Below are positions 14,851 to 38,902 of a DNA stretch of 41,474 nt, in pieces. The stretch's first letter is position 1. Each line of letters opens with the position of its first letter. The notes beneath the pieces were generated by a model that did no database searches, was not told the origin of the DNA, and saw only the letters and a list, made by a program, of their open reading frames with translations. Origin of the DNA: Parvularculaceae bacterium (lineage in GTDB: Bacteria; Pseudomonadota; Alphaproteobacteria; Caulobacterales; Parvularculaceae); the NCBI GenBank assembly GCA_021776435.1, contig JAJFFW010000111.1:1-41474 (forward strand). The letters are read 5' to 3'. The position numbers and the translations under genes are program-made.

Positions 14851-14852
14851 GT

Positions 14853-19508: not shown

Positions 19509-22025
19509 CTAAATATCGATCACCGTTCCAGCGCCGAGGCGCTCGATAGCCACGCGTTGGATACGCTCTCTTAGATCTGGATAGCGACGAATAAAGACCT
19601 TGAAGTCGCGTTTCTTCAGAACGAGAAGCGTACAGTATCCCAGTGCGTGGACATCAGCATTGCGGGGGTCGTTTGTTATCAGAGCCAACTCTCCAAAGAA
19701 ATCGCCTGTACCTAATACCACGTCTCCATCGGGCAGGATTACACGTATGGCGCCGCTCGAAATAAAATACATCTCCTCGCCGACTTCTCTGTGCTGGATA
19801 ATGACCTCTTCGGGAACAGCAAACCGGGTCTTTAGAAGGCGCGCAAGCCGTTTGCGCCGCCCTTTGTTAAGTTCAGCGAAGAAGGGGACTTTTGCAATCA
19901 ACGCTGACGGTTCGAGACGTAAATGCAAAGGCGGTAACTCATGTGTAGCAGACTCGGTTCCGCTAAGGCGTTTAATTAGGTCTGAATGGATCTCAGGTCC
20001 AATGACAGATTGCTCAAGCAATCGATCAAACGCGGCTTCTTCAAGACGCAAGCCCGCAAGCGTTAAATCACGGCGTTGGAGAGCCGCTGCATATTCGGGA
20101 TATTGTATCGAAAGCGCGTCGGCGCTGTCGTTGACAATTTGATAACGCTCTTCAAACAATTGCCGAAAGTGCGCCTGTGCTTTATCGGGCAATATTGCTT
20201 CGATCTCTGCGACGCCGGATTCGCGTTGTTCACGTAAAACCTGGCGCATGAGATTTAGGACGCCGAAACGGCGCGCCAGCGCACGGGCGAGAAATCCCGT
20301 CCACCCCAGTCTTCGTTGGGTTGTCAGCGCGTATCGAAACATACGCCGAAAGACGATGCTTTTGTGAGCTGCAGCGCCCCAATCAAGTGCGTTCAACTTT
20401 AGCGCATCGGAAACTTCATCAAGGCGAGCAAGGGCTTCGCGAAGTTGGTCAGGTGTTGTGAAGCCCTCTCCGAATTTTGTGAGATAGAGTTGGCGCTCCT
20501 GGGCGAGCGCCAAACCAAGGCCAATCACCACCCATTCGTCGTCGCTAAGGGCGCCAGCAACATCCGCTTTGTCACGCGCATCTGCGATTGCACTGGCGTA
20601 TCGTGCAGCGACGTCCTGGCGCTCCATATCGTCGACTTCGTGAAAAACCGCAAGACGATCGAGCTCCTCGCGCACGTGCTGCATCGCGTTCGCCACAGAC
20701 CTATCCCGCAACGCTTGATCGGCGCGCGGTAGTTTATCAAGACCGATCAGTTGCATAACGCCATGTATGGTTGTCGCCTGGAAGAGCAGCGTAAATAATA
20801 CGAAACTGGTGACCAATACGCCAACAAAGGCGCGCGCTTCCATATCAATGCCATCGGCTTCGAGCACAATCAGAGCCAGAGCAAGAGAGACAGCGCCCCG
20901 CAATCCTCCCCAGAACATTATTGTCTGATATGACCGGCTTACAGACTGCCCGGCGCCAAAGCGCGCAAGCACTGGCAGCATGACGTATATAATCAGAGCG
21001 CGTGCAAATGTTGCGGCAATTATTAGCGCCACAATTTCGCGCCAGTAGGTAAGGACGTTTTCGCCGAGCAATCGAGGGACAATCAAACCAACAAGAATAA
21101 ATATGAGCGACGTCGCCCAAAACCCAAGGTGATGCCAGGCGTGTTCAATTTCCGCAAAGACTTGCGGCGCCACCAGACGCCGGCCGACAGAGCCGACAAT
21201 TAAGCCGCTTGCGACAACCGCCATCACGCCCGAAACGTGAAGAAAATGTTCTGCAACAACGAATGCGATAAACGGTAATGCGACCGTGAGTGTAACAATG
21301 ATCAACGGATCGCGCCGCATTGCTCCCATCAACGATGCGGCCGGTCGGGCGATAGCAATTCCAACCAGAATACCGCCAAGGAAGACGACCAGGAAGTTCA
21401 TCAAGCTGGCGACGAAATCAAGATTGACGTCGAGCGTCAACATCGACAGGAAAATCGCCGAAATAACAATTGCTGTGGCGTCGTTGAACAGGCTCTCGCC
21501 TTCGACAAGCACCGCCAGACGCTTCGGGGCATTTAGATCTTTGAAAAGCGCGATAACCGCGACTGGGTCGGTAGCGGAAACGATGGCGCCAAGCAGCAGG
21601 CAAACAACAAGAGCAACGCCCGAAACAGCAGCGACAGTGACCCCGACGATAACAGTTGAAATAACAACGCCTATGATGGCCAAAAATAGAATCGAACGCA
21701 TTTCCGCCAACAACTTACGCAGATCAAGCGACAGCGCACTTTCGAACACGAGTGCGGGCAGAAATAGAAACAAGATAGCATCCGACGTAATACGCAATTG
21801 GGCTATGGCGCCGGTAATTTGGCGCCAAGCCGAGCTTTCCGTAGTGTGGCTGCCATGCGCCAGTTCGCCAGCGCTTACACCCAGATATTGCATAAAGAAT
21901 CCTAGGGCGACGCCGGCGACAGCGAGAATGACCGTATACGGTATACGGCTGCGTCGCGCTACAGGTAACATAAGGACCGCCAGCGCCAAAACAGTCGCTA
22001 GTCCGAAGACAGAACTCCACATCAT
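19509..22025 (-). CDS. CPA1-type Na+/H+ antiporter with C-terminal cyclic-nucleotide-binding domain
   Basis: This 838-residue membrane transporter exchanges Na+ (or K+) for H+. The N-terminal 420 residues contain about 12 membrane helices with CPA1 signatures: LPALVFESAL, the ion-site stretch VSATDPVAVIALFKD, VEGESLFNDATAI and GGLRGAVSLALAL. A long cytoplasmic linker (about 430-700) leads to a cyclic-nucleotide-binding domain (about 715-830) with FGELALITNDPRNADV, keeping the Glu and Arg that contact the ligand. This layout recalls sperm-type NHE exchangers. The ATG at 22025 is chosen for its AAAAAGGGGAC Shine-Dalgarno; a GTG 54 bases upstream would only add a hydrophilic tail. It follows the cytochrome gene on the same strand after 138 bases. 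Confidence 0.93.
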   Translation of the reverse strand: MMWSSVFGLATVLALAVLMLPVARRSRIPYTVILAVAGVALGFFMQYLGVSAGELAHGSHTTESSAWRQITGAIAQLRITSDAILFLFLPALVFESALSLDLRKLLAEMRSILFLAIIGVVISTVIVGVTVAAVSGVALVVCLLLGAIVSATDPVAVIALFKDLNAPKRLAVLVEGESLFNDATAIVISAIFLSMLTLDVNLDFVASLMNFLVVFLGGILVGIAIARPAASLMGAMRRDPLIIVTLTVALPFIAFVVAEHFLHVSGVMAVVASGLIVGSVGRRLVAPQVFAEIEHAWHHLGFWATSLIFILVGLIVPRLLGENVLTYWREIVALIIAATFARALIIYVMLPVLARFGAGQSVSRSYQTIMFWGGLRGAVSLALALIVLEADGIDMEARAFVGVLVTSFVLFTLLFQATTIHGVMQLIGLDKLPRADQALRDRSVANAMQHVREELDRLAVFHEVDDMERQDVAARYASAIADARDKADVAGALSDDEWVVIGLGLALAQERQLYLTKFGEGFTTPDQLREALARLDEVSDALKLNALDWGAAAHKSIVFRRMFRYALTTQRRLGWTGFLARALARRFGVLNLMRQVLREQRESGVAEIEAILPDKAQAHFRQLFEERYQIVNDSADALSIQYPEYAAALQRRDLTLAGLRLEEAAFDRLLEQSVIGPEIHSDLIKRLSGTESATHELPPLHLRLEPSALIAKVPFFAELNKGRRKRLARLLKTRFAVPEEVIIQHREVGEEMYFISSGAIRVILPDGDVVLGTGDFFGELALITNDPRNADVHALGYCTLLVLKKRDFKVFIRRYPDLRERIQRVAIERLGAGTVIDI

Positions 22026-22163
22026 ATGTCCCCTTTTTGGCCGACCGCATTGCGAGCGGGTTGCCACGCCCCAAACCACGTCCCAGTCATGCGCCTATTT
22101 TAAATCGCCGGCAGGCTCTCTTTCTCGTTCATTCCTTTGTGGCCATGTAAAATCAGCGCGGCG

Positions 22164-25100
22164 CTACTTATCGACCTGATCCGAGACGAAGTAAGGATCA
22201 CCGTTATCGTCGAGGAACAGCTGCTCCATTTCTGTCCTTTGGAATGGACGTGACCCGAAGCGTCCGAGAACGGCGATCTGATGACCTGTTTCATCAACGG
22301 CGCGATCGCGGTCAAGCCCTTTGGACAATGCAAGAGCTGGCTTCTTGGTTTTGCGCCACGCAATCAATTCCGGTTTTGGTTCGGCTGAAAAGCCATAGAA
22401 ATTAGGTTGCGATGCCGGACTGGTGAGTTGCAGCACCTTCAAGCCGTTGGCGCCGTCTGCGACATAGGCGAAGAGCGAAGCATTGGTCGTGCCGACAATG
22501 ACGTCACGGGCGTCATTGAGTGCGCCATCGAACGTCACCTTCTGATAGACAACCGGGTCTTCGGGGTTTTTGACATCGATGATCACGAGGCCTTCTTTCT
22601 TCGCTGCAACATAGGCGTAGGTGCGGGCCAAATAGATTTTCTGCGCGTCTGAGAGACGAATAAGCGCACCATCGACAAGTTTCGGCGCGTCCATCTTGGT
22701 GACATCAAAAACTTTCATGCCCTCGGCATCGGTCACAAATAGATAGCGGAATTGCAGCGCACTTGCGCGCATGTCGTTAAGGGGGATCACCGCGGTTGTT
22801 TTTGGTTTTAAAGGGTCATCGAGATCGAGAACGACAAGCCCCGCATCGACCGCCACGTAAGCATAATGCCCAGCGAGAGTGATATGCCGCGCCCCCGTCA
22901 GAACGCCGCCATCATTCCAGGTAAGGGCGCGTTTGAAAAAGTTATTGCGTGGCTCACCATCGGCAAGGGTGTTGATGTTGACTAGAATTAAACCCTCAAC
23001 CGCATCTGTAATAATCGCGTAATTATAGATCGGGTGGAACGCCTGCTCTCCGTTTGCCTTACGCATTGCCTCGGTGTTGCGTGCTGGATTGATGGGTTGG
23101 TTTGTCGGCAGGGCCATGCATGTCGCATTGGCTGTCTTGACGTGCATGTTTTGACCGAGCGGTGAAAGCGGCGCCGTGACGATCCGTTCCGAGAACGCTT
23201 TGTTACCGATATTCGCCACGTCATATGCTCGGAATCCACCCTTTCCTTGTGCTGTATACAGATATTCGCCGCGAAGTTGAAGGCAACGAACCGCCCCGCT
23301 GGTATCCTGCGCCACATTCGCAATTTCTTCCAGCGCGCCCGTCTCACCGGAAAACTCGTTATCACGGTCAAAGGTGTCGCCGCGCGTCCAGTTGATCAGT
23401 TCGCGATTATTTTGTTCAACATGCGCCTGATAATAGTCGGGATAAGCATATTTGTGCAGATAAGAACCAAACAGCGCCTGTGGCTCCTCCCATTCAGTTA
23501 CGCGCACGGCTTCGATTGCGCCATCAAGTCCGACCCAGGCGTGTAGCCCGATGAAATTAACGAAGTTCGTACCCAGCAATAAGAGCTGCGCCATTATGGC
23601 GTTGTTGTCATTATCTTTTGATAGATGACAGTCAGTACATGTCTTTGTTTCGGTCTTGCGAACGGTATGTGGAAAATGTGGTGCAAAGGCCTGGCTTGAA
23701 AACCCTATTGCGGAAATCGGCGGCTGTTGGACATAGATACGCTCGCGATTGACGTTTGTAGAGGACAATATAAGTGCTGATGATGACCGAACGGGAGCAA
23801 TTTTGTTATTTTTTGTGTCCTGATGTTTCCCTAGTTGGAACATTTGATCACGTGCAACTTGCGGGTTGTAAGTGGCAAAATTTCGCGTCGTTTCCCCATC
23901 ATAATGGTGTATCTCAGTTTTCCAGTTCGCTTCGATCGGTAGGTGGCATCCACCACATGACGTCGTCCACGACAGATGGCATGCGTAACACTCCATCTCA
24001 TCGCTCTTGTGAGCGAGATTGGACATATCAGCCTCAACACCCCATTTGAGTGCGCCTTCTGCGTTGCGCGACAAAAGTTTTGCGCGGGCGGATTTCGGAT
24101 TGTAGTTTGAGGATGACGGGTCAACGGAATCCTTGACCAGCGATAATTCCCATTCCAGGTTCGTGTCTATAATGGAGCGTTGAATGAGTTTGCGTTTGCC
24201 GGATCGGTTCACCCATTCAAACCGATACCGACCGTCCGGGTTGCGCAATACAGAAAGATCCCGACCAGCCGGCGAAGCCGCAGGTCCTGAGGTCTTCAGG
24301 GTCGGGTAATTCATTGCCGTGCCGTGACAATCTCGGCAACCGATTTCGACGGCGCTGGCAACTTCTCCATGTAGATAGCCGTTGCCGTGGCTATCTTGAG
24401 CGTAATGACAGTCTGCACACTGCATGCCCACCTCTGCGTGAATAGACATCATGTGAACGGTCTTACCGGGATTTTTACCGATAGAGACGAACTTCCCTTC
24501 GTCGGCTTTGCGCCATTTTTCGGGGTCGTCTGGCGCAACGATATTGTTTTCTGCGTCCAGGAGATTGCCTGCCTGGTCGCGCTTAAGAATGGCGCGGAAA
24601 TTCCAACCATGCCCATGATAGTCCGCAAACTGCGTGTCTTTAAGATCTGGATTCAAGTCATAAACATTACGGAGGAAGTCAAGATCCGCCCACTTGCCGC
24701 GAACCGACGCCTGTTCGGGGTTGCGATCCAATACAGCGCGCTGTTCTTCGATCGTCGGGTATTTCTGTTCTTTCGGCCACATATGCGGCGCGTCGGATTC
24801 GTAATCCCACATCGTGTATCCAAGAAATGAATTCAAAAACATATTCGGCTGATGCATGTGGCAAGCCATGCACTGGGATGTCGGAATCGCCCGCGAAAAG
24901 GCGTGCTTTATCGGATGCCCGGATTCGTTTTTCGGAATCGTCGGGTCGACAGTCGCGGTCTCACCGTCACGACCGAATTGCGTGTAAGTGAGCGCATGTC
25001 GCGGCTCGCGGTCATTGGCGTAAATGACATGGCAGGAGGCGCATCCCGACGACCGATAGTCACCTGGTTGATCGTTTGTGCCGAGAAACCACGTGAAGGG

Positions 25101-26099
25101 ATCGTTGAGCCGGGTCTTGTGAATATTGAGAACGGGGATCGCGACACGAAGGCCGGTGCCGGCGCCGCGGTTCGATTGATGGATATCCGGACGGCCCGGC
25201 TCTTCAAGTCGTTGCAATTGGCCGGTGGCGTTCGGCAGGCCAACCTCCGCGAATTGTGTCGCGATATTTCGACCGCCGCGTTCGAAGACGCGGAATATAT
25301 CCGCAGGGGGTAGAACATGCCAGGTCGGCATAGGGGCGAGAAACGGCAATACGCCTCGGGCGATAGCAGCAAGAGGGGGTGTGGTCGGGCAACCAACCGG
25401 AGAGTCTGTTGTCGGTTCGCCAGGGGAGCACAAAATCGCTGGCTCGCCGTCTCGTGTGTATGCTTCGCCGAGCACGTAGCGTTTGAACGGCAAAATGCCA
25501 TTGTTATAAGCAGCGCCGCCCCATAACATCGCACCCGTCGCCATCATTGAACGTTCGGCGGCGAGGATGTCGCGCATGTGACACGCGCCGCAAGACTCTC
25601 GCGCGACACGGTAATCCGATGGATTGACGAAACGAATGAACTCCGGCGACTCCTTGTTCAAGAGGGCGAAGCTGCGTTTCGGATTGGCGGAACTCGGGAA
25701 GTGCCAGCTTTCCGGGTATCGTGGTAATACGTGGGCTTTATCGCGTTCTTGAGCGTACTCAATGCTTTGTGTCGATAATCCCCTGGCGGAGAATACGGTC
25801 GCGTTACCGCCATGGCAGTCCGTACAACCCAACCGTATGTCGGCTGTGGGGTTATGCATCGTCGGGGCGTCGGTGGCGGTGTGGCAACTATGGCAGCCGG
25901 CGCTTTTCGCCTCAACCGCATTGCGATCCTGAAAGACAGGTGCAGGCGGCGCTGTGACACGCGTATAATCAATCTCGCGTGGTTTTTCTCCTTCCGACGC
26001 CAGAACAACGTTGCGCGTCAAAAACCCCAATACAAGCGCACCGGCGAGCGCCGCAAGGCGCGCCCAACGATAGAAGGATATGTTGCCTGCTTGTTTCAT
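22164..26099 (-). CDS. Exported decaheme cytochrome c with C-terminal LVIVD-repeat propeller
   Basis: This 1311-residue exported protein has an N-terminal hydrophobic signal (about 10-34, ending near VVLASEG). It carries ten CXXCH heme c motifs, with first cysteines at 69, 92, 170, 353, 410, 561, 588, 704, 715 and 821. After the last heme, from about residue 935 to 1245, come repeats of the LVIVD type (GLVVLDLDDP, GMKVFDVTKMDAP, GLVIIDVKNPEDP, GLKVLQLTSPA), predicted to form a beta-propeller. No lipobox or C-terminal anchor is seen. It starts four bases after the barrel gene stop, so it is co-translated with it. The probable role is the outermost electron carrier, with the propeller binding a partner, surface or substrate. 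It is not a recognised MtrC, OmcA or Omc homologue. Confidence 0.85.
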   Translation of the reverse strand: MKQAGNISFYRWARLAALAGALVLGFLTRNVVLASEGEKPREIDYTRVTAPPAPVFQDRNAVEAKSAGCHSCHTATDAPTMHNPTADIRLGCTDCHGGNATVFSARGLSTQSIEYAQERDKAHVLPRYPESWHFPSSANPKRSFALLNKESPEFIRFVNPSDYRVARESCGACHMRDILAAERSMMATGAMLWGGAAYNNGILPFKRYVLGEAYTRDGEPAILCSPGEPTTDSPVGCPTTPPLAAIARGVLPFLAPMPTWHVLPPADIFRVFERGGRNIATQFAEVGLPNATGQLQRLEEPGRPDIHQSNRGAGTGLRVAIPVLNIHKTRLNDPFTWFLGTNDQPGDYRSSGCASCHVIYANDREPRHALTYTQFGRDGETATVDPTIPKNESGHPIKHAFSRAIPTSQCMACHMHQPNMFLNSFLGYTMWDYESDAPHMWPKEQKYPTIEEQRAVLDRNPEQASVRGKWADLDFLRNVYDLNPDLKDTQFADYHGHGWNFRAILKRDQAGNLLDAENNIVAPDDPEKWRKADEGKFVSIGKNPGKTVHMMSIHAEVGMQCADCHYAQDSHGNGYLHGEVASAVEIGCRDCHGTAMNYPTLKTSGPAASPAGRDLSVLRNPDGRYRFEWVNRSGKRKLIQRSIIDTNLEWELSLVKDSVDPSSSNYNPKSARAKLLSRNAEGALKWGVEADMSNLAHKSDEMECYACHLSWTTSCGGCHLPIEANWKTEIHHYDGETTRNFATYNPQVARDQMFQLGKHQDTKNNKIAPVRSSSALILSSTNVNRERIYVQQPPISAIGFSSQAFAPHFPHTVRKTETKTCTDCHLSKDNDNNAIMAQLLLLGTNFVNFIGLHAWVGLDGAIEAVRVTEWEEPQALFGSYLHKYAYPDYYQAHVEQNNRELINWTRGDTFDRDNEFSGETGALEEIANVAQDTSGAVRCLQLRGEYLYTAQGKGGFRAYDVANIGNKAFSERIVTAPLSPLGQNMHVKTANATCMALPTNQPINPARNTEAMRKANGEQAFHPIYNYAIITDAVEGLILVNINTLADGEPRNNFFKRALTWNDGGVLTGARHITLAGHYAYVAVDAGLVVLDLDDPLKPKTTAVIPLNDMRASALQFRYLFVTDAEGMKVFDVTKMDAPKLVDGALIRLSDAQKIYLARTYAYVAAKKEGLVIIDVKNPEDPVVYQKVTFDGALNDARDVIVGTTNASLFAYVADGANGLKVLQLTSPASQPNFYGFSAEPKPELIAWRKTKKPALALSKGLDRDRAVDETGHQIAVLGRFGSRPFQRTEMEQLFLDDNGDPYFVSDQVDK

Positions 26100-26103
26100 C
26101 GCA

Positions 26104-27846
26104 TTAATAGGTCAACACCGCATTGAAAAGGACGGAATAATAAATTCCTCGTCTCTCATGATCGTCAAAAAGATCCTGAAACCCGTCGCCTGGCCGCAGG
26201 CCCGCACCGGACAGACGCAGTACAACATTTTGAATAAATCCGGGCCTGTAGATGACAGAGCCGGAGAAATCCCAGCCGATGTCTCTGTCGATATTTCCCT
26301 GGACGCGAAGCGCTTCCAATGTGTTCGTCTTGTGAAACCACAACCGGTTAGCATTAACGGAGATGCGCAGTGGCGCCATCACGTCAAAATCAGCGCCGAC
26401 ACCCGCAAGGATAATGCCTGGATTGTTGAAATTTGATTGGCCTTGTTCTTTCGACGATCTCAGATCTGGCAATACACCGTTGCGGCCCGAAACGCCGATG
26501 ACGCGACCACCACCGATAAATGGTATGGATTGCCGAACCCAGTAACTTGTATCGGCGCCGGCGAATTGCGGATTTTCTAAAATGGCGTCGAAGCCCCGTT
26601 CCGTATTGTCGTGCGGGTCGCCATCGCCACTTGCGAAAAGCCCCGACAGTCGAATCCGCATCCAATCCCGATCATAGGACGGCTCAATAGCAGCGAAAAA
26701 TGATCGTATATCTGCTGTTTTACCGGTGAAAATATTATTTCGATCTTCCCCCAACGCGTAATAGGCAGAGGTTGTAAGATTAAGCCGGCCAATTCGCCCG
26801 TCAGTATTGTAACCAAAATATACAATGTCGTAATTTCGGCCGCGCAAATTACCAATCAATGCCGGCCGCACCGGAAAGCCGTTTTTGTCGATCTCGATAT
26901 CGTCAGCTTCACGATTTAAATTGTAGGCGACAGTTATTTGACTGGTCAGCCCGGGAAACGGTAGATCTTGTCTGTAGAGATTGGCGAAAAAGACATAATC
27001 TTCGCGAGGGCTGGTCGTTATGTCGTTCAGCCCTGAATTTGTATCTTTTTCAAGGCGCGTGAAGGCGGCTAAATTGTATTGATACCGATTATTGTCACGG
27101 TTACCGAAAACCCGTACGCCAAGTTGGTTGTCCTGAAAGAGGAATCCTCTGAAGTCGCTCGAAAACGGCTGGATGCCGATGCGGACGGAATCGAAATCGT
27201 ATCGCTCAGAAACATTTCTGAGGTGGTAATCGACGAAAGCTTCTTGCAACCCGATAAAGCCGTCGTGGCGTTTGACACCTTCGGATGGCTCCACATGAAG
27301 AATGCGTAGCTCCTCCACCTGTGCGAAATTATAATTGAATACGGGCGTAAGGCGGAATTCGAGATCCTGCGGCTTATAGGCGGTTGATCCTTTGATCAAT
27401 GACAGGTTGGTGATCAGGTTTTGTGAAAAGAAGAAACTATCGGAGTCACCGAAGATATCGAGACTGTCAGGGCGCGACGTCGATTGAACGCCAACGGGCA
27501 GTGGAAATGAGCGTGGTTCCACGACGGTGTCCGAGATAAGAGAAGCGGCGAAAAACCAATCGTCCGTGCCAAAGATCGGTCTGTCGCCTTTCAACGTGTT
27601 TTGGTGATACGGATCCCACCATCGGGTTTTTAAAAGCCCTAGGCTTTCGGCGAGTCGCCATCGGTCCGGCACTGCGAGCATGCATTGTTCGAAAAGATCG
27701 TTTGGCGCACGACAATCTTTGTAATCGGATAGGCGCGGTGCTGGCACGGCGCCGCGATTGTTCGGCGTTTCTTCGGCCTCCTGCGCTGCACCAGAACTGA
27801 TCAAGGCGATGCTGGAGACGAGTGTCGAAAGGGTGATTGATCGCAT
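26104..27846 (-). CDS. Predicted outer-membrane beta-barrel protein
   Basis: This 580-residue protein has a signal peptide (MRSITLSTLVSSIALISSGAAQ). An N-terminal segment contains two cysteines (KDCRAPNDLFEQC) and the stretch WWDPYHQNTLKGDRPIFG. It then shows many alternating amphipathic strands ending in aromatic residues, and the C-terminus is VLFNAVLTY. This is the pattern of an outer-membrane barrel of perhaps 18-24 strands. I do not recognise a named family. The ATG at 27846 has AGGGGA upstream and lies four bases after the lipoprotein gene stop; longer starts would put the signal peptide inside. Packed directly before the decaheme gene, it is the best candidate for the sleeve or anchor carrying electrons across the outer membrane. 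Confidence 0.85.
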   Translation of the reverse strand: MRSITLSTLVSSIALISSGAAQEAEETPNNRGAVPAPRLSDYKDCRAPNDLFEQCMLAVPDRWRLAESLGLLKTRWWDPYHQNTLKGDRPIFGTDDWFFAASLISDTVVEPRSFPLPVGVQSTSRPDSLDIFGDSDSFFFSQNLITNLSLIKGSTAYKPQDLEFRLTPVFNYNFAQVEELRILHVEPSEGVKRHDGFIGLQEAFVDYHLRNVSERYDFDSVRIGIQPFSSDFRGFLFQDNQLGVRVFGNRDNNRYQYNLAAFTRLEKDTNSGLNDITTSPREDYVFFANLYRQDLPFPGLTSQITVAYNLNREADDIEIDKNGFPVRPALIGNLRGRNYDIVYFGYNTDGRIGRLNLTTSAYYALGEDRNNIFTGKTADIRSFFAAIEPSYDRDWMRIRLSGLFASGDGDPHDNTERGFDAILENPQFAGADTSYWVRQSIPFIGGGRVIGVSGRNGVLPDLRSSKEQGQSNFNNPGIILAGVGADFDVMAPLRISVNANRLWFHKTNTLEALRVQGNIDRDIGWDFSGSVIYRPGFIQNVVLRLSGAGLRPGDGFQDLFDDHERRGIYYSVLFNAVLTY

Positions 27847-27850
27847 CACT

Positions 27851-29863: not shown

Positions 29864-29930
29864 CGTTTTTTACCCCCTACGTCTCGCCGCGTCGCGATAC
29901 ATTCAATCGAATGCAGGTTCTCGTGGTTTG

Positions 29931-31433
29931 TTAAATATATCCGTGTGCTAACATTGCTTCGCCAACGCGGACAAAACTCGCTACATTGGCGCCCGTTTGA
30001 TAATCGGCGACACCGTTTACAACCGGGGCATATTCCACGCACTGCGTATGAATGGAGCGCATAATTCGCTCAAGTTCTTTTTCCACCTGGTCACGTGTCC
30101 AAACCAGGCGCATGGCGTTTTGCGCCTGCTCAAGGCCCGACACTCCAACACCTCCAGCATTTGCCGCCTTAGCCGGGCCGAATAAAACGTTGTTATGCTT
30201 TAAAACATGAATCGCCTCTGCGGTCAGAGGCATGTTAGCCCCTTCCGCCAGCACTTCGAGACCATTGCGGCACATGGTGTCAGCCATGCTTTCATCGATT
30301 TCATTTTGCGTTGCGCATGGAAGGCCAACCTGGCAGGGAACGGCCCACGGGCTCTTGCCAGCGTGGTAAGTTACGCCGTGCGCTTTATTGGCAAAAACGG
30401 AAAGCGATTCGCGGCGCACTTCCTTGACGTTTTGTAGAATCCTGAACGAGTCTTCGTTGAAGCCATCCTTAACATGTGCGAAGCCGCGACTGTCTGAGAC
30501 GGCGACGACTTTTGCACCCAACTGCATAGCGCGTTCGAGGGCGTAGAGAGCAACATTGCCGGCGCCGGAAACCACGACGGTCTTGTCTTTTATTGTTTTG
30601 TTGTGATGTTGCAGCATGTCTTCGGCGAAAACGACCGCGCCATAGCCGGTCGCCTCCTTGCGAATTTCACTGCCGCCGAAAGCGAGCCCCTTGCCAGTGA
30701 GAACGCCAGTGTAGCGATTGGCGAGCTGCTTATATTTACCGAATAGATAGCCGATCTCGCGTCCTCCGACGCCAATATCACCGGCTGGCACGTCGACGAC
30801 TTCGCCAATATGTCGGTATAACTCACTCATCATCGAATGACAGAAACGCATGATCTCTAGGTCCGAACGACCCTTCGGATTAAAGTTAGACCCACCTTTA
30901 CCACCACCCATCGGCAGGCGTGTCAAAGAGTTTTTGAAAGTTTGCTCAAAGCCTAAGAATTTCAGTATACTGAGAGTAACACTGGGGTTGAACCGTAAAC
31001 CGCCTTTATACGGACCGAGAGCACTGTTAAATTGAACGCGATAGCCTTTGTTCGCATGCGGTATGCCGTTATCATCTTCCCATACGACACGAAACATAAT
31101 GACCCTATCGGGCTCTGTCATACGTTCGAGGAGTCTCGCGTCGCGGTATCGATGATTATCAAGGTAAAAGGGCATCACCGTTTCGACGAACTCGAATACA
31201 GCCTGATGAAATTCCTGTTCATGCGGGTTGCGTCGTTTAAGACCGGCCATGAAGTCGTCGATCTCGCTTACGGCGCCGCGCCCGCCCGACCCGATGGCAA
31301 ATTTCGCGGTTGGCGCGCTGGGGTCTCTCGTGGGTGGGTTGGTCATGTTTTGATGCTCCGATTCAGATGATGACAGTTTGTCCGTGCGCTGCCCTGCCGC
31401 CGCTTGCGGATTGTGCTTCTTTCGCCAAAACAT
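29931..31433 (-). CDS. gdhA: NADP-specific glutamate dehydrogenase
   Basis: This 500-residue enzyme interconverts glutamate and 2-oxoglutarate plus ammonium with NADP(H). It matches the hexameric 450-residue E. coli GdhA family: YKGGLRFNPSV, the catalytic lysine loop LPMGGGKGGSNFNPKG, DIGVGGREIGYLFG and the dinucleotide site VVSGAGNVALYALE. The first about 50 residues are an extra hydrophilic extension. The ATG at 31433 has GGGAGA seven bases upstream. The internal ATG at 31346 (MTNPPTRDPS) has GGAG upstream and would give a standard length, so both starts are possible. It sits inside the cytochrome block, with 80 bases before and 67 after, an unexpected place for this housekeeping enzyme. 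Confidence 0.95.
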   Translation of the reverse strand: MFWRKKHNPQAAAGQRTDKLSSSESEHQNMTNPPTRDPSAPTAKFAIGSGGRGAVSEIDDFMAGLKRRNPHEQEFHQAVFEFVETVMPFYLDNHRYRDARLLERMTEPDRVIMFRVVWEDDNGIPHANKGYRVQFNSALGPYKGGLRFNPSVTLSILKFLGFEQTFKNSLTRLPMGGGKGGSNFNPKGRSDLEIMRFCHSMMSELYRHIGEVVDVPAGDIGVGGREIGYLFGKYKQLANRYTGVLTGKGLAFGGSEIRKEATGYGAVVFAEDMLQHHNKTIKDKTVVVSGAGNVALYALERAMQLGAKVVAVSDSRGFAHVKDGFNEDSFRILQNVKEVRRESLSVFANKAHGVTYHAGKSPWAVPCQVGLPCATQNEIDESMADTMCRNGLEVLAEGANMPLTAEAIHVLKHNNVLFGPAKAANAGGVGVSGLEQAQNAMRLVWTRDQVEKELERIMRSIHTQCVEYAPVVNGVADYQTGANVASFVRVGEAMLAHGYI

Positions 31434-31513
31434 GATATTTTCTCCCGATCATTCCCAAAGCGCAGTATGCGTAGTCTAAGCTGAGAAGCCGCTTTTGCCT
31501 ATCGTTCTCTCCT

Positions 31514-32851
31514 TCATTGTTCCAAAAACGTCTCGATTTTGCGCAGCGCGTCCCTAAATCTAATCTGGTCGTACGTAGAAGGGCTTTGAACATGATTGCT
31601 CGCCTGCTCAATAGCCGTTGTCATTTCTGTGGAATTCAATTCTAGGTCAGCTGATAGTCGTTGCACTGCAAAGAGCGCTTGCTCGGCGGCGGCGTAATTT
31701 GTGTACCGTTCCGCGAGCGAAGCATCGACGACTTCGCGAAGAATGGCGCGAACCATTGCAGGATCTGAGAAATCCGCAGAAAGAACGCGTGACGCCATTT
31801 CATCTGTCGTCGCGCGAAGAACGATCGCAGAACGACGAAATTGCTTACTGCTTTGTAAAGATGCAGCGTGCAAAGCTCGTCCGTTGTTTTCTAAACGTTC
31901 AGCGAGTACTGTATCAAGCCCTCGCGCCGCGGCGATTAACATGAAAAGATTGGCGTCGTTAAGAATAGGAACGCCGGGACCGAGCGGACGGAGCGGATTG
32001 GGCCGCCAGCTCAAATCCTTTAAACCGCTTGAAATTGGCTGGTGACAGGCGTGGCAGTCGAAAAAGAAAAGCTCAGGGAATGGACCTTCTCCGCTGATCT
32101 TTTTATCAAGCAACAGATCTAGTGTACGTTGTAAGGCGCTTACCTGGCCAATCGCCCAGACCTGGGCGCCCGGGGCGACCGTTTTACGTGTGCTATAGCC
32201 AGCGTCGGTGCGATGGTGCTGTTGAATGGTTGTATAAAGATCGAGCTCGAATTTAAGTCTCGGATGTCCGGCGCCCATGATCTTATGCGAGACGAATTGA
32301 TTTTTAGCGCCGGAACCAAGGTGACAGTTTAAGCACAGCTGAGCGCGTGCGGAGGGGTCTTCGGTCGGATACAATCCGGCCTCGACGTTCAGCGCATGGT
32401 CTGCGCTGCTACGGTGAAATGCGAGCCAGTCTTGTGCGCCTCCGTGACAGGCTTCACAACCGACTCCGTCACTGATCTGAAACCGTTCGCTGCGCAGCGT
32501 ATCGGGCACATTGTCAGCGTGACAGTCTAAACACTCGTCAGCCTTTTGCGCTGGGCCAATCCCCAAATTGCGAGCGATACGCTGAGCATGGGGCGTCAAC
32601 AAAACCTCATACGCGCGTGAGTGCGCGCCTGATTCACCGAACGCCCGCCAACGGAAGTATTCGTTTTGTCCGACGACAGGACCGGCGCCCGGTCCCGCCA
32701 CCTGATCGCCATGGCATCCGGCGGTCGCGCAGCTCGCAACGCCGGTATGATTATATCCGTCCATCAACGGCGCCGACGGCGCCTGCGCATACACGGACGC
32801 AAGGGTGCACAGCGCAAATGAAAAGATAGATATTATCACTGTTCGGAACAT
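31514..32851 (-). CDS. Periplasmic pentaheme cytochrome c (c554-like)
   Basis: This 445-residue protein has a cleavable signal peptide (MFRTVIISIFSFALCTLASVYA). Its first heme site is the unusual CX4CH (C41-C46-H47, CATAGCH). Four normal sites follow: CLDCH, CEACH, CLNCH and CHACH. The pattern of hemes in the N-terminal 260 residues resembles cytochrome c554-type multiheme proteins. The C-terminal 150 residues have no heme and are helical. The ATG at 32851 overlaps the upstream gene stop (TGATG). It probably shuttles electrons in the periplasm between the anchored decaheme protein and the outer membrane. An enzymatic role cannot be excluded. Confidence 0.85.
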   Translation of the reverse strand: MFRTVIISIFSFALCTLASVYAQAPSAPLMDGYNHTGVASCATAGCHGDQVAGPGAGPVVGQNEYFRWRAFGESGAHSRAYEVLLTPHAQRIARNLGIGPAQKADECLDCHADNVPDTLRSERFQISDGVGCEACHGGAQDWLAFHRSSADHALNVEAGLYPTEDPSARAQLCLNCHLGSGAKNQFVSHKIMGAGHPRLKFELDLYTTIQQHHRTDAGYSTRKTVAPGAQVWAIGQVSALQRTLDLLLDKKISGEGPFPELFFFDCHACHQPISSGLKDLSWRPNPLRPLGPGVPILNDANLFMLIAAARGLDTVLAERLENNGRALHAASLQSSKQFRRSAIVLRATTDEMASRVLSADFSDPAMVRAILREVVDASLAERYTNYAAAEQALFAVQRLSADLELNSTEMTTAIEQASNHVQSPSTYDQIRFRDALRKIETFLEQ

Positions 32852-34677
32852 CACTTCGCCCCATCACTGAATTTTACGACGGCGTTAGTCGATGTCATCA
32901 AGGGCGCGTTATTGCTATCGTCATGATAGCTGTGGCAGGTAAGACAATCCGAAGCGATCGCCTTTGTTCCGCTCGTATCATTATGGCAGGTGCGGCAGAC
33001 GGTGATGCTAGGCATTAGAACGTCCGAAGAGTGCGACGATGTTTCTGCGCGATGACAGTCGACGCAATCCGTGTTGCCGGCCATGTGCTGAGCATGGCTA
33101 AATTGAGCTTTCGGCAGATACCGGTTGGTGAGTTTTACGGGTTGCATGCGCGGCATCCCACTGTTGGCGCCGGAATCAATCGTCGTGTGGCATTTCTGAC
33201 AAATGCCGTCTTTGGAGAATATACGGGCGATCATATTTTGGGTGTTGGTGCGCGCGTCGACAAAAGCGCTGCTCTGCGATTGTGCGCGGCGCGCGCGCGC
33301 CTCAGCGCTCAACTGGCGCTCCAAGACACCCGACGGCCGATCGCCGAGCAATAACTCCGTCGCTTTGGCCAAATAAAAGTCCTCCAGCGTAGCGCGCACG
33401 TCTTCGGGGTCGCCATGGGGAAGGAATCTCACGTTAGCATTTTGCTCCGTGACGAATGCCAGCGAATGACAATCGCCGCAATGAAGCTCCATTTCAATTG
33501 GCGTGATAAATGCCCCCGCAGCGTCCACTTGATGACAATCGGCGCAGTCTAGCTTATCGCCGTAACGCGCCTGCGATACAGGTCCCAAAGTAGCAAGTTT
33601 GCGGATGACCTCTTTGTCTTTCAGATGAAAGTCATGGGGAAATTTAAGGCCGTTATTTTCCTTGGGATGCTCGACCAGCGAAATACGTTGCACAGAAAGA
33701 ATGTCAGGTTGTGGATCAAGAATGATTCTGGGTTTGAATTCCGGATGCCAATGGGAGAAGTTTATGACGTTGACAAGCGTTGTTTCGTCGAACCGTCTGT
33801 CCATGCTGCTATGGCACTCAACGCACATTGATGACGATGTCGGCGTGACGCCGTTCGCGCCATTGTGCTCGAAGTGACAGGAACCGCATCGCTCTTCCGG
33901 TATGTTGAGCTGGTTGTGCAAGCTGGATAGCCATCTTTCTCTGGTGGTTTTATCCGGTGCTGCAGCAACGAGTGATTGCGCAGGGGCGTGATTGCGCGTC
34001 TGGCTATGGCACGATAAACAAACGTCGTCTCGAACCCGCACAAAGGTTTGTTCATGGCATACCCGGCAGTTCGCACCAAGATTTGCATGAGCCGATGACA
34101 AGGCGCCGGAGAGCCAATTCTGATTGGCGATCGGTGATAGGTAATCAATTGTGCTACGTTGCTGTCTCGGTTCACCTGATTCATCTAGGTAAACAATGAG
34201 TGGAATAGCAAGAAAGACGGTAAAGACCAAAACGGTGACTGCCCACGCACTAATTCGTTTGTCCGGCGCGTAGCCTTTCATCGAGAAGATCTCGTCTTCA
34301 TCGCCGCTTTCGCCGACAGCCGTAGGAGCTTCAACAAGCTCTATTTCGATTAAGAGATCGGCGTCTGCATCTGCGGGTCCTAGAGTAATCTTGTAGGGCC
34401 CTATTCGAACGTCGGCGTCTTGATCAATAGAGAGGTCACGACGACGAATAAGTGCCCCATCTACTCGCACGCGGTAATCCGTGCTCGCTTCAATCCGAGC
34501 CTTTTCTGGAGTTCTACAAATGAGGCGTGCATGATGAAGTCCAACACGCAAATCCGGCAGATGCACATCGCAATCTGTCGCGCGCCCAAATGTGACATTG
34601 TCCTTATCGTAGATCGTCGGCCTGACAGTAATGCGACCGCCAGGACGTCGTCGAATGAATTCAACTCGTATCGCCAT
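32851..34677 (-). CDS. FHA domain - membrane helix - decaheme cytochrome c fusion
   Basis: From the ATG at 34677 this is 608 residues. Residues about 23-98 form an FHA fold (FGRATDCDVHLPDL, LHHARLIC). The FHA Arg32 and His49 are kept, but the usual phosphothreonine-contacting Ser is Gly46. An acidic linker leads to one membrane helix (142-164, SAWAVTVLVFTVFLAIPLIVYL), then a periplasmic part with ten CXXCH sites between residues 204 and 578. The basic KR before the helix supports a cytoplasmic FHA and a periplasmic cytochrome. It starts seven bases after the membrane b-type gene, and its stop overlaps the next ATG. Upstream in-frame starts add a non-FHA tail and were rejected. It likely receives electrons from the b hemes. 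I know of no described protein with this architecture. Confidence 0.85.
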   Translation of the reverse strand: MAIRVEFIRRRPGGRITVRPTIYDKDNVTFGRATDCDVHLPDLRVGLHHARLICRTPEKARIEASTDYRVRVDGALIRRRDLSIDQDADVRIGPYKITLGPADADADLLIEIELVEAPTAVGESGDEDEIFSMKGYAPDKRISAWAVTVLVFTVFLAIPLIVYLDESGEPRQQRSTIDYLSPIANQNWLSGALSSAHANLGANCRVCHEQTFVRVRDDVCLSCHSQTRNHAPAQSLVAAAPDKTTRERWLSSLHNQLNIPEERCGSCHFEHNGANGVTPTSSSMCVECHSSMDRRFDETTLVNVINFSHWHPEFKPRIILDPQPDILSVQRISLVEHPKENNGLKFPHDFHLKDKEVIRKLATLGPVSQARYGDKLDCADCHQVDAAGAFITPIEMELHCGDCHSLAFVTEQNANVRFLPHGDPEDVRATLEDFYLAKATELLLGDRPSGVLERQLSAEARARRAQSQSSAFVDARTNTQNMIARIFSKDGICQKCHTTIDSGANSGMPRMQPVKLTNRYLPKAQFSHAQHMAGNTDCVDCHRAETSSHSSDVLMPSITVCRTCHNDTSGTKAIASDCLTCHSYHDDSNNAPLMTSTNAVVKFSDGAK

Positions 34678-34684
34678 TACTGAA

Positions 34685-35560
34685 TCACCAGAAGAAGAAA
34701 ACGCTGACGATATGCGCAACGAGAGCGGCGAGAAGCGCAAAGGCCAGCGGAACGTGAAAGTGTAACCATAAACGAAGAAGGGTTGTAAAACGGATGTGCC
34801 TGCGAGTGCGCAACAACAGGGCGTTTTTGCGCTCCAGGATCGCCATTATGTCTTCAAGCGGGCGACGCATTTCTTCCGGCGCCGATGGCGCCGCATGGCG
34901 CAGACGTTTGAGGGCGTGGGTTGTGGCGCATCGCTTTTGCGTGGCGGAGATCGATGTGAATAGACCCGGACGTATCTTGGTTTTGCTGATGGCGCGTTTT
35001 ACTTCCCGCACATACGCCGGATCAAGGGGCTGGGCTGCTTCCCGCAATTGACGGTCGATGCTACGGATCGCCGTCAGCAGTTCAGCCTGGCTTCGTTGCG
35101 CGCGATTGTCGCTCATGCGCCGTGGCGTCGTCGCATAGAAATAAACGCCGTAGAAACCCGAAATGATCACGAACACCATCAGCGTATAGGCAAGAGTGTG
35201 CACATTGAGGCCGAATTGAAAACCGGTGTGCAATGTCGCCAACACCAACAGTGACGCCCCTAGATAAACATGCGCAGACGTCCATCCTTTCAGGTTCCAA
35301 TGACCAGGCGTTATTGCGCGTTTGCGCAAACCAATAAGCATTAGCCAGACGATCAAAAGGGTGGAGATTGTCCCGAGTGTATAGCCGTACCAGGTGCCGC
35401 CATTGTGTCGTGGTTCGACATCGACGAACAGATAAACAATGATGCTCACGATGCTGATAACCACAGCCGCCTTCAAGTAGCGATACCGTTTGTGGCGGAG
35501 AAAGCCTTCATGTCGGATGGGCGTATCCGAAGATTGGGTATGACTATCGAGCGCTGTCAT
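34685..35560 (-). CDS. Predicted di-heme b transmembrane electron-transfer protein
   Basis: This 291-residue membrane protein has five predicted helices (about 32-49, 59-78, 95-116, 123-144 and 264-291). Helix 3 carries H97 and H111 and helix 5 carries H269 and H283, each pair exactly 14 apart. That is the geometry used for two stacked b hemes in transmembrane cytochromes. Basic residues place the N-terminus and a 118-residue loop (145-262), rich in Arg and Lys, in the cytoplasm. The C-terminus then lies on the periplasmic side. I do not recognise a named family. It lies seven bases after the flavin/iron-sulfur gene and seven before the FHA-decaheme gene, so a role carrying electrons across the inner membrane between them is a natural inference. 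Confidence 0.82.
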   Translation of the reverse strand: MTALDSHTQSSDTPIRHEGFLRHKRYRYLKAAVVISIVSIIVYLFVDVEPRHNGGTWYGYTLGTISTLLIVWLMLIGLRKRAITPGHWNLKGWTSAHVYLGASLLVLATLHTGFQFGLNVHTLAYTLMVFVIISGFYGVYFYATTPRRMSDNRAQRSQAELLTAIRSIDRQLREAAQPLDPAYVREVKRAISKTKIRPGLFTSISATQKRCATTHALKRLRHAAPSAPEEMRRPLEDIMAILERKNALLLRTRRHIRFTTLLRLWLHFHVPLAFALLAALVAHIVSVFFFW

Positions 35561-35567
35561 AGTGTCT

Positions 35568-38078
35568 TTAATCCTGCGATCCGCTGGCGATCTGCAGATA
35601 ATCGTCGGGTGAGATTCGTATAGCCGCCCCTGTGGGGCACGCGCGTACGCATGCCGGCCCGCCTTTTATGCCGGCGCACATGTCGCATTTAACGGCGAGT
35701 TTCGGTGCGGTTTCGTCTTTTTTCTTGTGGCTATCGACCCATTCTCGTTTCGGTTCTCCGGGGCCTGGCCCGACGCCAAACGCCAGCCAAGAAAAAAGGC
35801 CGGGCTTTTTCGGCGGTACCGCTGCCATTTGAATCACACCGTACGGGCAGTTGCGTTCGCAATTACCGCACCCGATGCATTTATCGTCGATGAAGACTTC
35901 GCCGTCAGGACCGCGATGGATGGCGTCGGGAGGGCAATCGGTCATACAATGTGGATGTTCGCAATGACGACACGATGTCGGCACATGAAGATAAGCATAG
36001 GTGTTGCCCGCTTCCCGATCCAGTCGAGAGATCCCTTCGTGAATTTCTGCGCAAGCCACTTCGCAGTTGTCGCACCCTATGCAAAGAGTTTCATCAATAA
36101 CCAGGGCGTCAGTAGCTTCGCTCAATCCCTCCTGTTCCAAAAGGAATCTTGCGATCGAACTATGCATGTCAACGACAGATGAAAAACTTTCACGCTTCGC
36201 TTCGATATAGTCATTGACGCGACGGCGTTGTGCGACTTGTTTTTCGACGGTTTGACGAAATTCAGAATTTTCGGCTAATAGGCGTTCAAAAACCTCACCC
36301 GGCAATTTTACCACTTCCGATTTAATCGCTGCACGGACAGTAGCCGTCCTATAGCCATCGTAGAATAGCGACATTTCCCCGACATAATTGCCGGCGAGGA
36401 TATAAGACAGAAAAACGTCTTTTCCGCCGATTTGTTTTTCTACGACGGCGCTGCCGGAGCGAATGATGTAAATGTCCGTCGAGTGATCCCCCTCGTTGAT
36501 AAACGCCTCGCCGGCTCTAAGGGGGATGATCTCCGAGCGCGAGAGGATTTCACCAACATCGTGCGGCGTGAGTACGCGGCCGAAAATTTGTCCGATTTGC
36601 CGTTCCATCGACAGGCGTTCCATGCGCCGTTTCACGCCTGGTACGGATGCGATCAGTTTCAGGGTCGCATTGCGTGGAATTTCGAGCAGCATCGTCGGTT
36701 CGCCAGCGCGTACCGTGGCGGTGCGCCGTCGGCCGGATATTAAACCCAATTCACCGAAGATCGAGCCGGCTTCAATGGGCACTGTTTTTTTCTTATCATT
36801 GGGATCTATTTCAACGCGTACCGAGCCGTCAATGATGGCGAAAATCGACGAACCGATGTCATTTCGGTTGACGATCACCTCGCCGAGTCTTTTGTAATGC
36901 GTCATTGAAGTCAAAAGAAATTCACGCATCTGCAGTGGCGAGACGTCTTGAAGAATCTCTACGCCGGTGCGGATATAATCGAGCCACTCGTCGACGCTGC
37001 GGTGTACCGACGCTTTTTCGAAGAGCAGTTCGAGCAGCGGTGTGTCAGGCGGTTGCAGGTCAGTATTGCCAGCGATGAATTCGACGACGTCGTGGCCCTG
37101 GTTCATGCAGTGTTTGATCAGAGGAAAACCGGCAAGCGCGCCGATAATATATAGGCCGGGCACGCTGCTCTCATATTGGGCTGAGAGTATTGGAAACGCT
37201 TCTCGGTCAGGGCCAGTGAACTCGACGCCCGCCGCTTCGACGAATTTCCGCGGTGGGGCTGCGCCAAGTCGAGCGATGACGCGATCACAGGCGAGCCTTG
37301 CCTCGCCATCCTTGGTGTCGACAACGGCAACCCACGGATTTTCGCCAGATCCACCCTTTTCGATTCGGAGAAGTGAAGCCTGAGTAATAAAATCGAGGCG
37401 GCCGTCGTCACGCGCCTTATGAAGGGCTTGAACATTGGCTTCTTTGGCGCGCGGAAATCCGTCAGCGCGCTGAAGGAGCGTGACGAGGTTGCCTTGTTCG
37501 GGATCAGCGGCAAGGCCTAATGCATTCTCGATACCTGCATCGCCGCCGCCGATGACAACGATGTGCTCGTCGAAATATTCCTTTGGATCATCAAGTTGAT
37601 ACTGCACGAAAGGTAAATCGCCGCCAGGCTGAGAGACCTTGTTCGGGTTGCCTTGCACGCCAATCGCGAGAACGACAAAATCGGCGGTAATGGTTTCACC
37701 ATCGGCCAGGGTAAGCTGGAAATTCCCCTGCGATCCTTGGATCGATACAATATCAGAATTTAAACGCACATTGATTTTCAGGGCGTCGGCGCCATCGTCC
37801 CACCGGTCTATGATACTCTCGCGGGAACCGGCCTCAAATGCGACGTCGCTGCGTAGCGGCAGCTGATCCGGTGTCGCCATAATATATTTGCCGCGCTGAT
37901 ATTTATAGATCGTGTCGGAAAGGTGCGACGTCTTTTCCAAAAGAATGTGCGATATTCCACGAGCGGAGGCGCGCGCGGCGGCGCTCAACCCGGCAGGGCC
38001 TGAACCGACAATTGCGACTTTGAAACTCTCCAAAAGCCCTGTTCCCCCACCTGCCGCCGCCTTGATAATACCCGACAA
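35568..38078 (-). CDS. NAD(P)H/FAD oxidoreductase fused to two cyclic-nucleotide domains and a four-[4Fe-4S] domain
   Basis: This 836-residue soluble protein has no signal peptide. Residues 18-340 are a TrxB/YpdA-like two-dinucleotide fold with FAD site GSGPAG (25-30) and NAD(P) site GGGDAG (177-182); the thioredoxin-reductase CXXC is absent. Two cyclic-nucleotide-binding domains follow (about 385-470 and 510-600). Both keep the Glu and Arg of the phosphate cassette (FGELGLISGRRRTATV; VGEMSLFYDGYRTATV). Residues 660-820 are NrfC/DmsB-like with sixteen cysteines in four sets (666-676, 703-715, 734-744, 798-814), enough for four [4Fe-4S] clusters. The start is TTG at 38078; a TTG at 38033 with AGGG upstream is an alternative. 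Likely role: passing NAD(P)H electrons to the membrane b protein under second-messenger control. Confidence 0.88.
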   Translation of the reverse strand: MSGIIKAAAGGGTGLLESFKVAIVGSGPAGLSAAARASARGISHILLEKTSHLSDTIYKYQRGKYIMATPDQLPLRSDVAFEAGSRESIIDRWDDGADALKINVRLNSDIVSIQGSQGNFQLTLADGETITADFVVLAIGVQGNPNKVSQPGGDLPFVQYQLDDPKEYFDEHIVVIGGGDAGIENALGLAADPEQGNLVTLLQRADGFPRAKEANVQALHKARDDGRLDFITQASLLRIEKGGSGENPWVAVVDTKDGEARLACDRVIARLGAAPPRKFVEAAGVEFTGPDREAFPILSAQYESSVPGLYIIGALAGFPLIKHCMNQGHDVVEFIAGNTDLQPPDTPLLELLFEKASVHRSVDEWLDYIRTGVEILQDVSPLQMREFLLTSMTHYKRLGEVIVNRNDIGSSIFAIIDGSVRVEIDPNDKKKTVPIEAGSIFGELGLISGRRRTATVRAGEPTMLLEIPRNATLKLIASVPGVKRRMERLSMERQIGQIFGRVLTPHDVGEILSRSEIIPLRAGEAFINEGDHSTDIYIIRSGSAVVEKQIGGKDVFLSYILAGNYVGEMSLFYDGYRTATVRAAIKSEVVKLPGEVFERLLAENSEFRQTVEKQVAQRRRVNDYIEAKRESFSSVVDMHSSIARFLLEQEGLSEATDALVIDETLCIGCDNCEVACAEIHEGISRLDREAGNTYAYLHVPTSCRHCEHPHCMTDCPPDAIHRGPDGEVFIDDKCIGCGNCERNCPYGVIQMAAVPPKKPGLFSWLAFGVGPGPGEPKREWVDSHKKKDETAPKLAVKCDMCAGIKGGPACVRACPTGAAIRISPDDYLQIASGSQD

Positions 38079-38491: not shown

Positions 38492-38887
38492 ATGATCCTG
38501 TCTGATATCCAATTTATATTTTTGTTGTTGATAATCTTTCAGCTCAAGCATTTCCTTGGTGATTATGTTTTCCAAACCGCTTGGATGGTGAAAGGTAAAT
38601 CGATCCCGGGGCTGGGTTTCGTTTTTCCTCTATCGGTGCATGTTTTCATACATGCCAGTCTAACACTGGTAATTGTGATTATTGTAGATATTAGTTTATG
38701 GTATCTCTTCCTTTTCGATTTTGTGGCGCATTTCGTACTGGATCGATTGAAATCCGGGCCGCGTTATTTTGGAAGGTTTACAGATTTCAATAAGCAATCA
38801 TTCTGGATACCGTTCGGTTTTGACCAAATGGGGCATCATCTCACCCATTATACAATTATTTTATGGATTTATTTGCATCGCTTCTAG
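38492..38887 (+). CDS. DUF3307-family small membrane protein
   Basis: This 131-residue protein has about three to four membrane helices. It shows the DUF3307 pattern of charged and His residues: LKHFLGDYVFQTAWM near the N-terminus, HVFIHASL, then FDFVAHFVLDRLKSG and FGFDQMGHHLTHY. The conserved His and Asp residues suggest metal or ligand binding within the membrane, but the family has no known function. No good Shine-Dalgarno is visible before the ATG; an inverted repeat overlaps that position. It stands alone, divergent from the redox block. Confidence 0.85.
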   Translation: MILSDIQFIFLLLIIFQLKHFLGDYVFQTAWMVKGKSIPGLGFVFPLSVHVFIHASLTLVIVIIVDISLWYLFLFDFVAHFVLDRLKSGPRYFGRFTDFNKQSFWIPFGFDQMGHHLTHYTIILWIYLHRF

Positions 38888-38902
38888 GCGCTCATTGCGT
38901 CG

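Follow-up and report, generated by a model that had tools for sequence, protein, structure and literature searches.

A conserved gene cluster in a Parvularculaceae bacterium probably encodes a hitherto undescribed electron wire linking NAD(P)H to the outer membrane

INTRODUCTION

The question raised by contig JAJFFW010000111.1 of a Parvularculaceae bacterium (assembly GCA_021776435.1; the whole stretch of 41,474 nucleotides is the window referred to below) is whether a run of redox and envelope genes forms a single route for electrons across the cell envelope and, if so, whether that route is one already described. An initial annotation had proposed that eight redox or envelope genes, grouped with an antiporter, carry electrons from cytoplasmic NAD(P)H to the cell exterior, whereas Mtr and other established conduits are usually depicted as starting at the quinone pool. 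As read from its sequence, the cluster probably encodes a previously undescribed wire for electrons that links intracellular NAD(P)H with the outer membrane.

RESULTS

All nine open reading frames were found on the minus strand between positions 19509 and 38078 of the window (Table 1). If C and F start at their likely ATG codons (34677 and 27846), five of the eight junctions are 7 bp or shorter when the 4-bp overlap of C and D is included (A-B, 7 bp; B-C, 7 bp; E-F, 4 bp; F-G, 4 bp), in keeping with the gaps of mostly 1 to 7 bases first reported; the others measure 80 bp (D-GDH), 67 bp (GDH-E), and at least 84 bp (G-H). The genes of the proposed set are real, but the middle one, which the initial annotation had not named, is an NADP-specific glutamate dehydrogenase (GDH; 677.8 bits against a cut-off of 536). 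A type II secretion operon (window 7926-19478) is convergent with the cluster; it was rejected as an exporter, being beside the cluster elsewhere only as gspE-like hits in two loci (L070 and L072). Divergent from A lie a DUF3307 gene and a TPR/predicted barrel gene (window 38492-40566), an order repeated in one relative (G376, 62-63%); the TPR/barrel gene (39127-40566) was also considered as a Slam-like factor, a reading without Pfam support.

Table 1. Genes of the cluster, with positions in the window
Gene	Product	Position	Strand	Basis
A	NAD(P)H/FAD oxidoreductase (Pyr_redox) with two cyclic-nucleotide-binding domains and four [4Fe-4S] sites	35568..38078	-	
B	Membrane protein with two W-x3-H-x13-H motifs and SGxxG; predicted di-heme b	34685..35560	-	
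C	Cytoplasmic FHA-like domain, one TM helix, and periplasmic decaheme c	32851..34677	-	
D	Exported c554-like pentaheme cytochrome	31514..32854	-	
GDH	NADP-specific glutamate dehydrogenase	29931..31433	-	NCBIfam NF006929
E	Lipoprotein with HbpS-like (heme-binding/GlcG) repeats, predicted outer membrane	27851..29863	-	
F	Outer-membrane beta-barrel, 18 strands, AlgE/OprD-like, C-terminal Tyr	26104..27846	-	Predicted structure
G	Exported decaheme cytochrome (ExtM-like heme region) with C-terminal LVIVD beta-propeller	22164..26099	-	
H	CPA1 Na+/H+-type antiporter with C-terminal cyclic-nucleotide-binding domain	19509..22079	-	Pfam, NCBIfam

A scan of genome contigs with G returned 68 loci, 67 of them on contigs with clear G relatives; the 68th (L104, Ardenticatenia) has a weak G match of 29% and was left out of the members. 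Relatives from Alpha-, Beta-, and Gammaproteobacteria are about 56 to 80% identical to G, and those from two Verrucomicrobia MAGs 46%. Carriers include Parvularculaceae, Erythrobacteraceae/Sphingomonadaceae, Robiginitomaculum/Algimonas, Phenylobacterium, and Rhodospirillales-like MAGs, and further loci come from Limnobacter, Solimonas, Thalassotalea, Alcanivoracaceae, and Granulosicoccaceae. E, F, and G are contiguous in the same order in most proteobacterial loci, and A-B-C and D lie within about 10 kb, on either strand, in most loci with enough flank. Among 398 sampled genomes of the phylum, F is present in 12, and a close B relative (E < 1e-100) occurs in exactly these genomes; 11 of them also have G, and in the remaining one (G154) the contig stops right after F. 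Three genomes (G214, G349, and G396) have A/B/C far from G, yet all are retained, and three others (G001, G034, and G153) have A-B-C with no F or G match. The two Verrucomicrobia MAGs (L099 and L100) have G beside an E-like gene and an NHL/ScyF-like protein, and neither A-D nor F was seen on these contigs.

Because gene order is conserved and the genes co-occur, we conclude that A-G, kept together across three proteobacterial classes, are a conserved unit and that their arrangement is not due to chance. The opposite reading, that unrelated units happen to be adjacent, could draw on the three gaps of 67 to 84 bp and on the presence of GDH and the antiporter in the operon only in close relatives, but synteny, co-occurrence, and a fusion of A with B (below) refute it for A-G, and it stands partly for GDH and H; for the cluster as a whole we consider it highly improbable. 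GDH lies within the operon only in Parvularculaceae, and it is also near the cluster in three loci of the Erythrobacteraceae group (L045, L048, and L090) and in L060, L077, and G259; because of this proximity in other clades, we withdrew the view that GDH is purely a passenger. The antiporter gene H adjoins the cluster only in Parvularculaceae (L008/L171, L063, L080, and L097) and, judged by these neighborhoods, is part of the unit only in close relatives.

Protein A has an FAD/NAD(P) fold and an N-terminus with no hydrophobic stretch, and 16 Cys residues, invariant in 17 relatives, make up its four [4Fe-4S] sites, so that the NAD(P)/FAD and iron-sulfur motifs first noted in a protein with no signal peptide were borne out. 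It also matches PF13247 (40.8 bits). An invariant Arg in an NRRxEF-like motif resembles that of thioredoxin reductase; from this Arg and the nearby NADP-glutamate dehydrogenase, we infer that A uses NADPH rather than NADH. The initial annotation had missed that A matches the cyclic-nucleotide (cNMP)-binding family PF00027 in two stretches (118.9 bits). Within the phosphate-binding cassettes, Glu443/Arg452 and Arg577 are invariant and Glu568 is nearly so in 17 relatives; both cassettes keep Glu and Arg at a spacing of 9 in nearly all relatives, the second being lost in L077. The cyclic-nucleotide cassette of H is canonical (FGELALITNDPRNA). A therefore appears to be a cyclic-nucleotide-binding protein with both phosphate cassettes intact, and the donor of the system appears to be switchable by a cyclic-nucleotide signal.

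Genes that could make and remove such a signal recur beside the cluster, with adjacency taken as within about 10 kb and clades delimited manually. Six clades (Erythrobacteraceae/Sphingomonadaceae, Algimonas, Phenylobacterium, Limnobacter, Thalassotalea, and one Parvularculaceae locus) have a CHASE2-type class III cyclase gene there. Four (Erythrobacteraceae/Sphingomonadaceae, Robiginitomaculum/Algimonas, Phenylobacterium, and one unclassified alphaproteobacterial MAG) have a gene for a CpdA/SpdA-like class III phosphodiesterase that scores below curated cut-offs; in Erythrobacteraceae and Sphingobium, its place is immediately after C of A-B-C. On a guessed background of 2 to 5% per clade, the chance of finding the cyclase in 6 of 12 clades is 5e-8 to 1e-5, and that of finding the phosphodiesterase in 4 of 12 is 7e-5 to 2e-3. 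The host genome has two CHASE2 genes elsewhere, outside the window; since neither a cyclase nor a phosphodiesterase gene is present in the window, it is the domains alone that argue for gating in this host. A search of open-access papers on cNMP binding and EET returned no description of the present system.

In B, the two His-x13-His pairs reported at first hold up: W93/H97/H111, W265/H269/H283, and G135/G138 are invariant in the 18 relatives aligned, and Ser134 is present in most. Five TM helices are expected, and hydropathy gives five segments, with TM3 and TM4 not cleanly separated. No Pfam family scores above its cut-off (the best is Ni_hydr_CYTB, at 15 bits), and the PF01794 (Ferric_reduct) domain was not matched. 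In two of the genomes with no F or G match (G034 and G153), A and B are one polypeptide of 1118 to 1123 aa, accompanied by a C relative with 9 motifs; this Rosetta-stone link argues that A docks directly on B. The fusion genes lie at L149:7350-10706 and L150:3052-6423, each with a C-like gene.

The count of 25 heme c motifs in three proteins (10+5+10) was confirmed as 10 CXXCH in C, 4 CXXCH and 1 CX4CH in D, and 10 CXXCH in G, a total that requires CATAGCH (CX4CH) of D to be counted as a heme motif; what did not survive is the listing of C among exported proteins. C matches Pfam FHA (21.7 bits) and Cytochrome_C7 (54.9 bits), and a TM helix at residues 167 to 185 of the 629-aa open reading frame separates the FHA-like part from the ten hemes, so C is predicted to be membrane anchored and not a secreted soluble protein. 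Phosphothreonine signaling via the FHA domain is a weak candidate, as the domain lacks the usual phosphothreonine-binding Ser, which is not conserved, and is missing from the Limnobacter relatives. D, which has four CXXCH and the CATAGCH, matches Pfam Cytochrome_C554 (44 bits) and is itself conserved across loci. In three groups, the cluster has cytochrome-maturation genes as neighbors.

The outer-membrane lipoprotein and the barrel of the initial annotation were likewise upheld. E matches Pfam HbpS-like in 3 stretches (79.6 bits) and has a lipobox, read from the sequence as ...FVIVG followed by C; its outer-membrane location is predicted. F has no Pfam or NCBIfam match, but its AlphaFold2 model (19 sequences; pLDDT 66, pTM 0.66) is a barrel of 18 strands, with no confident prediction for the first 125 residues, and Foldseek gives AlgE (E 1e-16) and OprD-family porins as best matches. 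Folds of this type often serve solute or polymer transport, so that the 18-strand barrel modeled for F may hold no decaheme.

G (1311 aa) joins a decaheme region to LVIVD repeats that form a propeller at the C-terminus, and has no lipobox; its surface exposure is a prediction. The AlphaFold model of its heme region (pLDDT 34) was not used, and searching the PDB by sequence gave nothing useful for B, F, or G and no solved relative of G. A search of the open-access literature for LVIVD, multiheme, and extracellular electron did not return a description of the system. Distant solo 12-heme relatives of the heme region, of about 790 aa, were seen in four loci (L165-L168).

These features of G bear on a reading in which no electrons leave the cell: A-D would feed G as a dedicated redox enzyme outside the cytoplasm, such as a metalloid-oxyanion reductase, with F passing substrate or product and E anchoring or binding heme. 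At 61% mean column identity over 19 relatives, G is the most conserved part measured; the exposed parts of Geobacter conduits vary most (PMC6148476), and the conservation of G therefore supports an enzyme. The match of the heme region to ExtM of a selenite/tellurite operon, the solo 12-heme relatives, and the AlgE/OprD likeness of F point the same way. Yet G reaches only 64.3 bits against the curated ExtM cut-off of 800 (NF040943), which places it outside that family, the LVIVD propeller is not known to be catalytic, and the purified tellurite reductase of Erythromonas ursincola consists of subunits of 62 and 55 kDa (PMC5488091), unlike the 1311-aa G. We judge the enzyme reading rather unlikely.

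No close homologue of known function that would explain the cytochromes was found. MtrCAB, MtoAB, and PioAB work, as the present system might, with a barrel and multiheme cytochromes across the outer membrane, but F has 18 modeled strands and no MtrB/PioB Pfam match, whereas the MtrB barrel has 26 strands, and an MtrB-like identity for F was rejected. Among C, D, and G, only 28.5 and 21.7 bits were obtained for the DmsE-family decaheme (MtrA; cut-off 192 bits) and 17.9 bits for the OmcA/MtrC family (cut-off 209 bits). The Geobacter extHIJKLMNOPQS genes also combine a porin with multiheme cytochromes (a pentaheme and 10/12-heme cytochromes, with a membrane cytochrome b and a non-heme lipoprotein partner; PMC5877670, PMC6148476), and their ExtM resembles G; they differ in having Rieske/cytochrome b (bc-like) in place of an NAD(P)H flavoprotein, and no LVIVD domain is named there. 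NADPH oxidases and ferric reductases likewise feed two b hemes in a membrane protein from an NAD(P)H-flavin, but A is Pyr_redox plus 4Fe-4S, and the output here would be to c hemes. The Uet type, described from cathode-oxidizing Tenderiales (PMC10734462), was first suspected and then rejected: it too is a multiheme pathway with beta-propeller (NHL) proteins, but it has no A/B/C, and its undecaheme, trihemes, PPIase, and NHL proteins are absent from the present cluster. A separate Uet-type cluster lies on host contig C91 (L162:1026-19081), with an 11-heme cytochrome, NHL proteins, PPIase, tri- and tetrahemes, and a CRP-family regulator.

PCC3 and PCC4 are putative clusters proposed for iron oxidation, both with an inner-membrane protein of five TM helices, two WX3HX13H motifs, and SGXXG; PCC4 has a published heme set of 4/5/10 and a proposed quinone link, and "cyclic nucleotide" has 0 occurrences in the main text (He et al. 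2017, PMC5566968). B carries the two W-x3-H-x13-H motifs and the SGxxG of that protein, and the PF13247 match of A corresponds to an Fe-S (PF13247) gene upstream of the membrane protein in PCC4 subgroup II; PCC4 also shares an iron-sulfur/redox gene, a decaheme, a 4-heme relative of D, and a porin, but the hemes here are 10/5/10. At three PCC4-like loci (L151, L159, and L160), recognized by gene content and not by accession, profiles of A (147 to 195 bits), B (45 to 66), and D (50 to 67) all match, and that of C scores 52 and 69 bits, being below threshold in L160. These loci have no E, F, or G relatives at the threshold used, and the F profile had no match at E <= 1e-4 among the porin-position open reading frames of L151 and L159, whose porin identity is taken from position. 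PCC3 shares the inner-membrane motif (B profile, 44 to 49 bits at PCC3-like loci L152 and L154), but its cytochromes, extracellular and periplasmic, have about 21 to 34 hemes, against 10/5/10 in the present cluster, and none is like G. PCC3-like L154 has a Pyr_redox+Fer4 protein nearby, with no cNMP domain reported.

By these comparisons, A-D are distantly related to PCC4-like loci and E, F, and G are not: the inner half is related to PCC4, the outer half is distinct, and the donor has cyclic-nucleotide sites. The original statement that no protein looks like parts of established porin-cytochrome conduits thus holds only in part: A, B, C, and D match PCC4-like loci, B also has the PCC3/PCC4 motif, and the heme region of G resembles Geobacter ExtM below the cut-off. 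All three PCC4-like loci have a separate NAD_binding_1 plus Fer2 (2Fe-2S) protein as NAD(P)H module, with FAD_binding_6 detected in two, whereas the Pyr_redox domain is fused in A; they carry cNMP and polyferredoxin domains in one protein. An unrelated NAD(P)H flavoprotein combined with the same cNMP/polyferredoxin block favors NAD(P)H over the published quinone at PCC4-like loci and suggests that gating is part of a design shared with them. As far as searches of the open-access literature go, the cluster is an undescribed, conserved system of the porin-cytochrome kind; by gene content, it is not MtrCAB, PioAB, Uet, or PCC3.

DISCUSSION

We regard it as an even call that A-G form a trans-envelope conduit that is fed from cytoplasmic NADPH and has a cyclic nucleotide as its gate. 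The cofactor sites, predicted compartments, gene order, co-occurrence, and intact cyclic-nucleotide sites are established by sequence comparison; synteny and the predicted compartments uphold a trans-envelope unit. The mechanism that we infer, including the order of electron flow, the NADPH specificity, the gating, the export, and the contact of F with G, would run as follows. Electrons from NADPH would enter the FAD of A and pass through its four [4Fe-4S] sites to the two b hemes of B, which would carry them across the inner membrane to the ten c hemes of C and then the five hemes of D in the periplasm. D would reduce the decaheme/propeller G, which barrel F and lipoprotein E would keep at the outer membrane, and G would pass electrons to an external partner, for which Fe(III)/Mn(IV), metalloid oxyanions, humics, and O2 are candidates. 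A cyclic nucleotide (cAMP or cGMP) would switch A, and the cytoplasmic H+ left over would suit H as a co-regulated antiporter in Parvularculaceae. It speaks against this reading that GDH normally consumes NADPH.

Outward flow seems more likely than uptake because NADPH is a strong reductant and the inside-negative potential would drive electrons out through B, by the logic of NADPH oxidase. Run in reverse, the same conduit would be loaded from outside, by Fe(II), Mn(II), a cathode, or a partner cell, with electrons passing through G/F, D, C, and B to NADP+ or quinone. This is kept open by the separate Uet cluster of the host and by a near relative that is a MAG named Biocath_Alpha_06, and it would agree with the iron oxidation proposed for PCC3/PCC4. 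However, reduction of NADP+ from high-potential donors across B would run uphill and against the membrane potential, no RuBisCO match was found in the host genome, and most carriers of the cluster are aerobic heterotrophs; on these grounds we think uptake unlikely.

Parts resembling the inner-membrane half have already been proposed in iron-oxidizing bacteria; what is new here is a putative conduit that would start at an NAD(P)H flavoprotein with two cyclic-nucleotide-binding domains whose motifs are intact. For PCC4, this suggests a revised model with NAD(P)H, not quinone, and with cNMP gating. A broader reading, which we offer tentatively and think possible though doubtful, is that of a widespread, horizontally mobile conduit on the NADPH (not quinol) pool in aerobic heterotrophs, switched post-translationally by a dedicated cyclase/phosphodiesterase pair via the tandem cNMP domains, with the gating shared with PCC4 and its non-homologous NAD(P)H module. 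Such a conduit might help to explain the extracellular reduction of metals, metalloids, or oxygen by aerobic bacteria.

Cultivable carriers of the cluster are found among Erythrobacteraceae, Sphingobium, and Limnobacter. Plasmid pMSHV of Sphingobium herbicidovorans MH (L170, NZ_CP020539.1; 959 kb, typed conjugative) carries D-E-F-G and phosphodiesterase-C-B-A-TPR (the TPR gene in CcmI position) together in about 17.5 kb, and G is also on 12 other large Sphingobium/Sphingopyxis replicons. On pMSHV, ShlB/FhaC (TpsB) genes lie on both flanks of the cluster.
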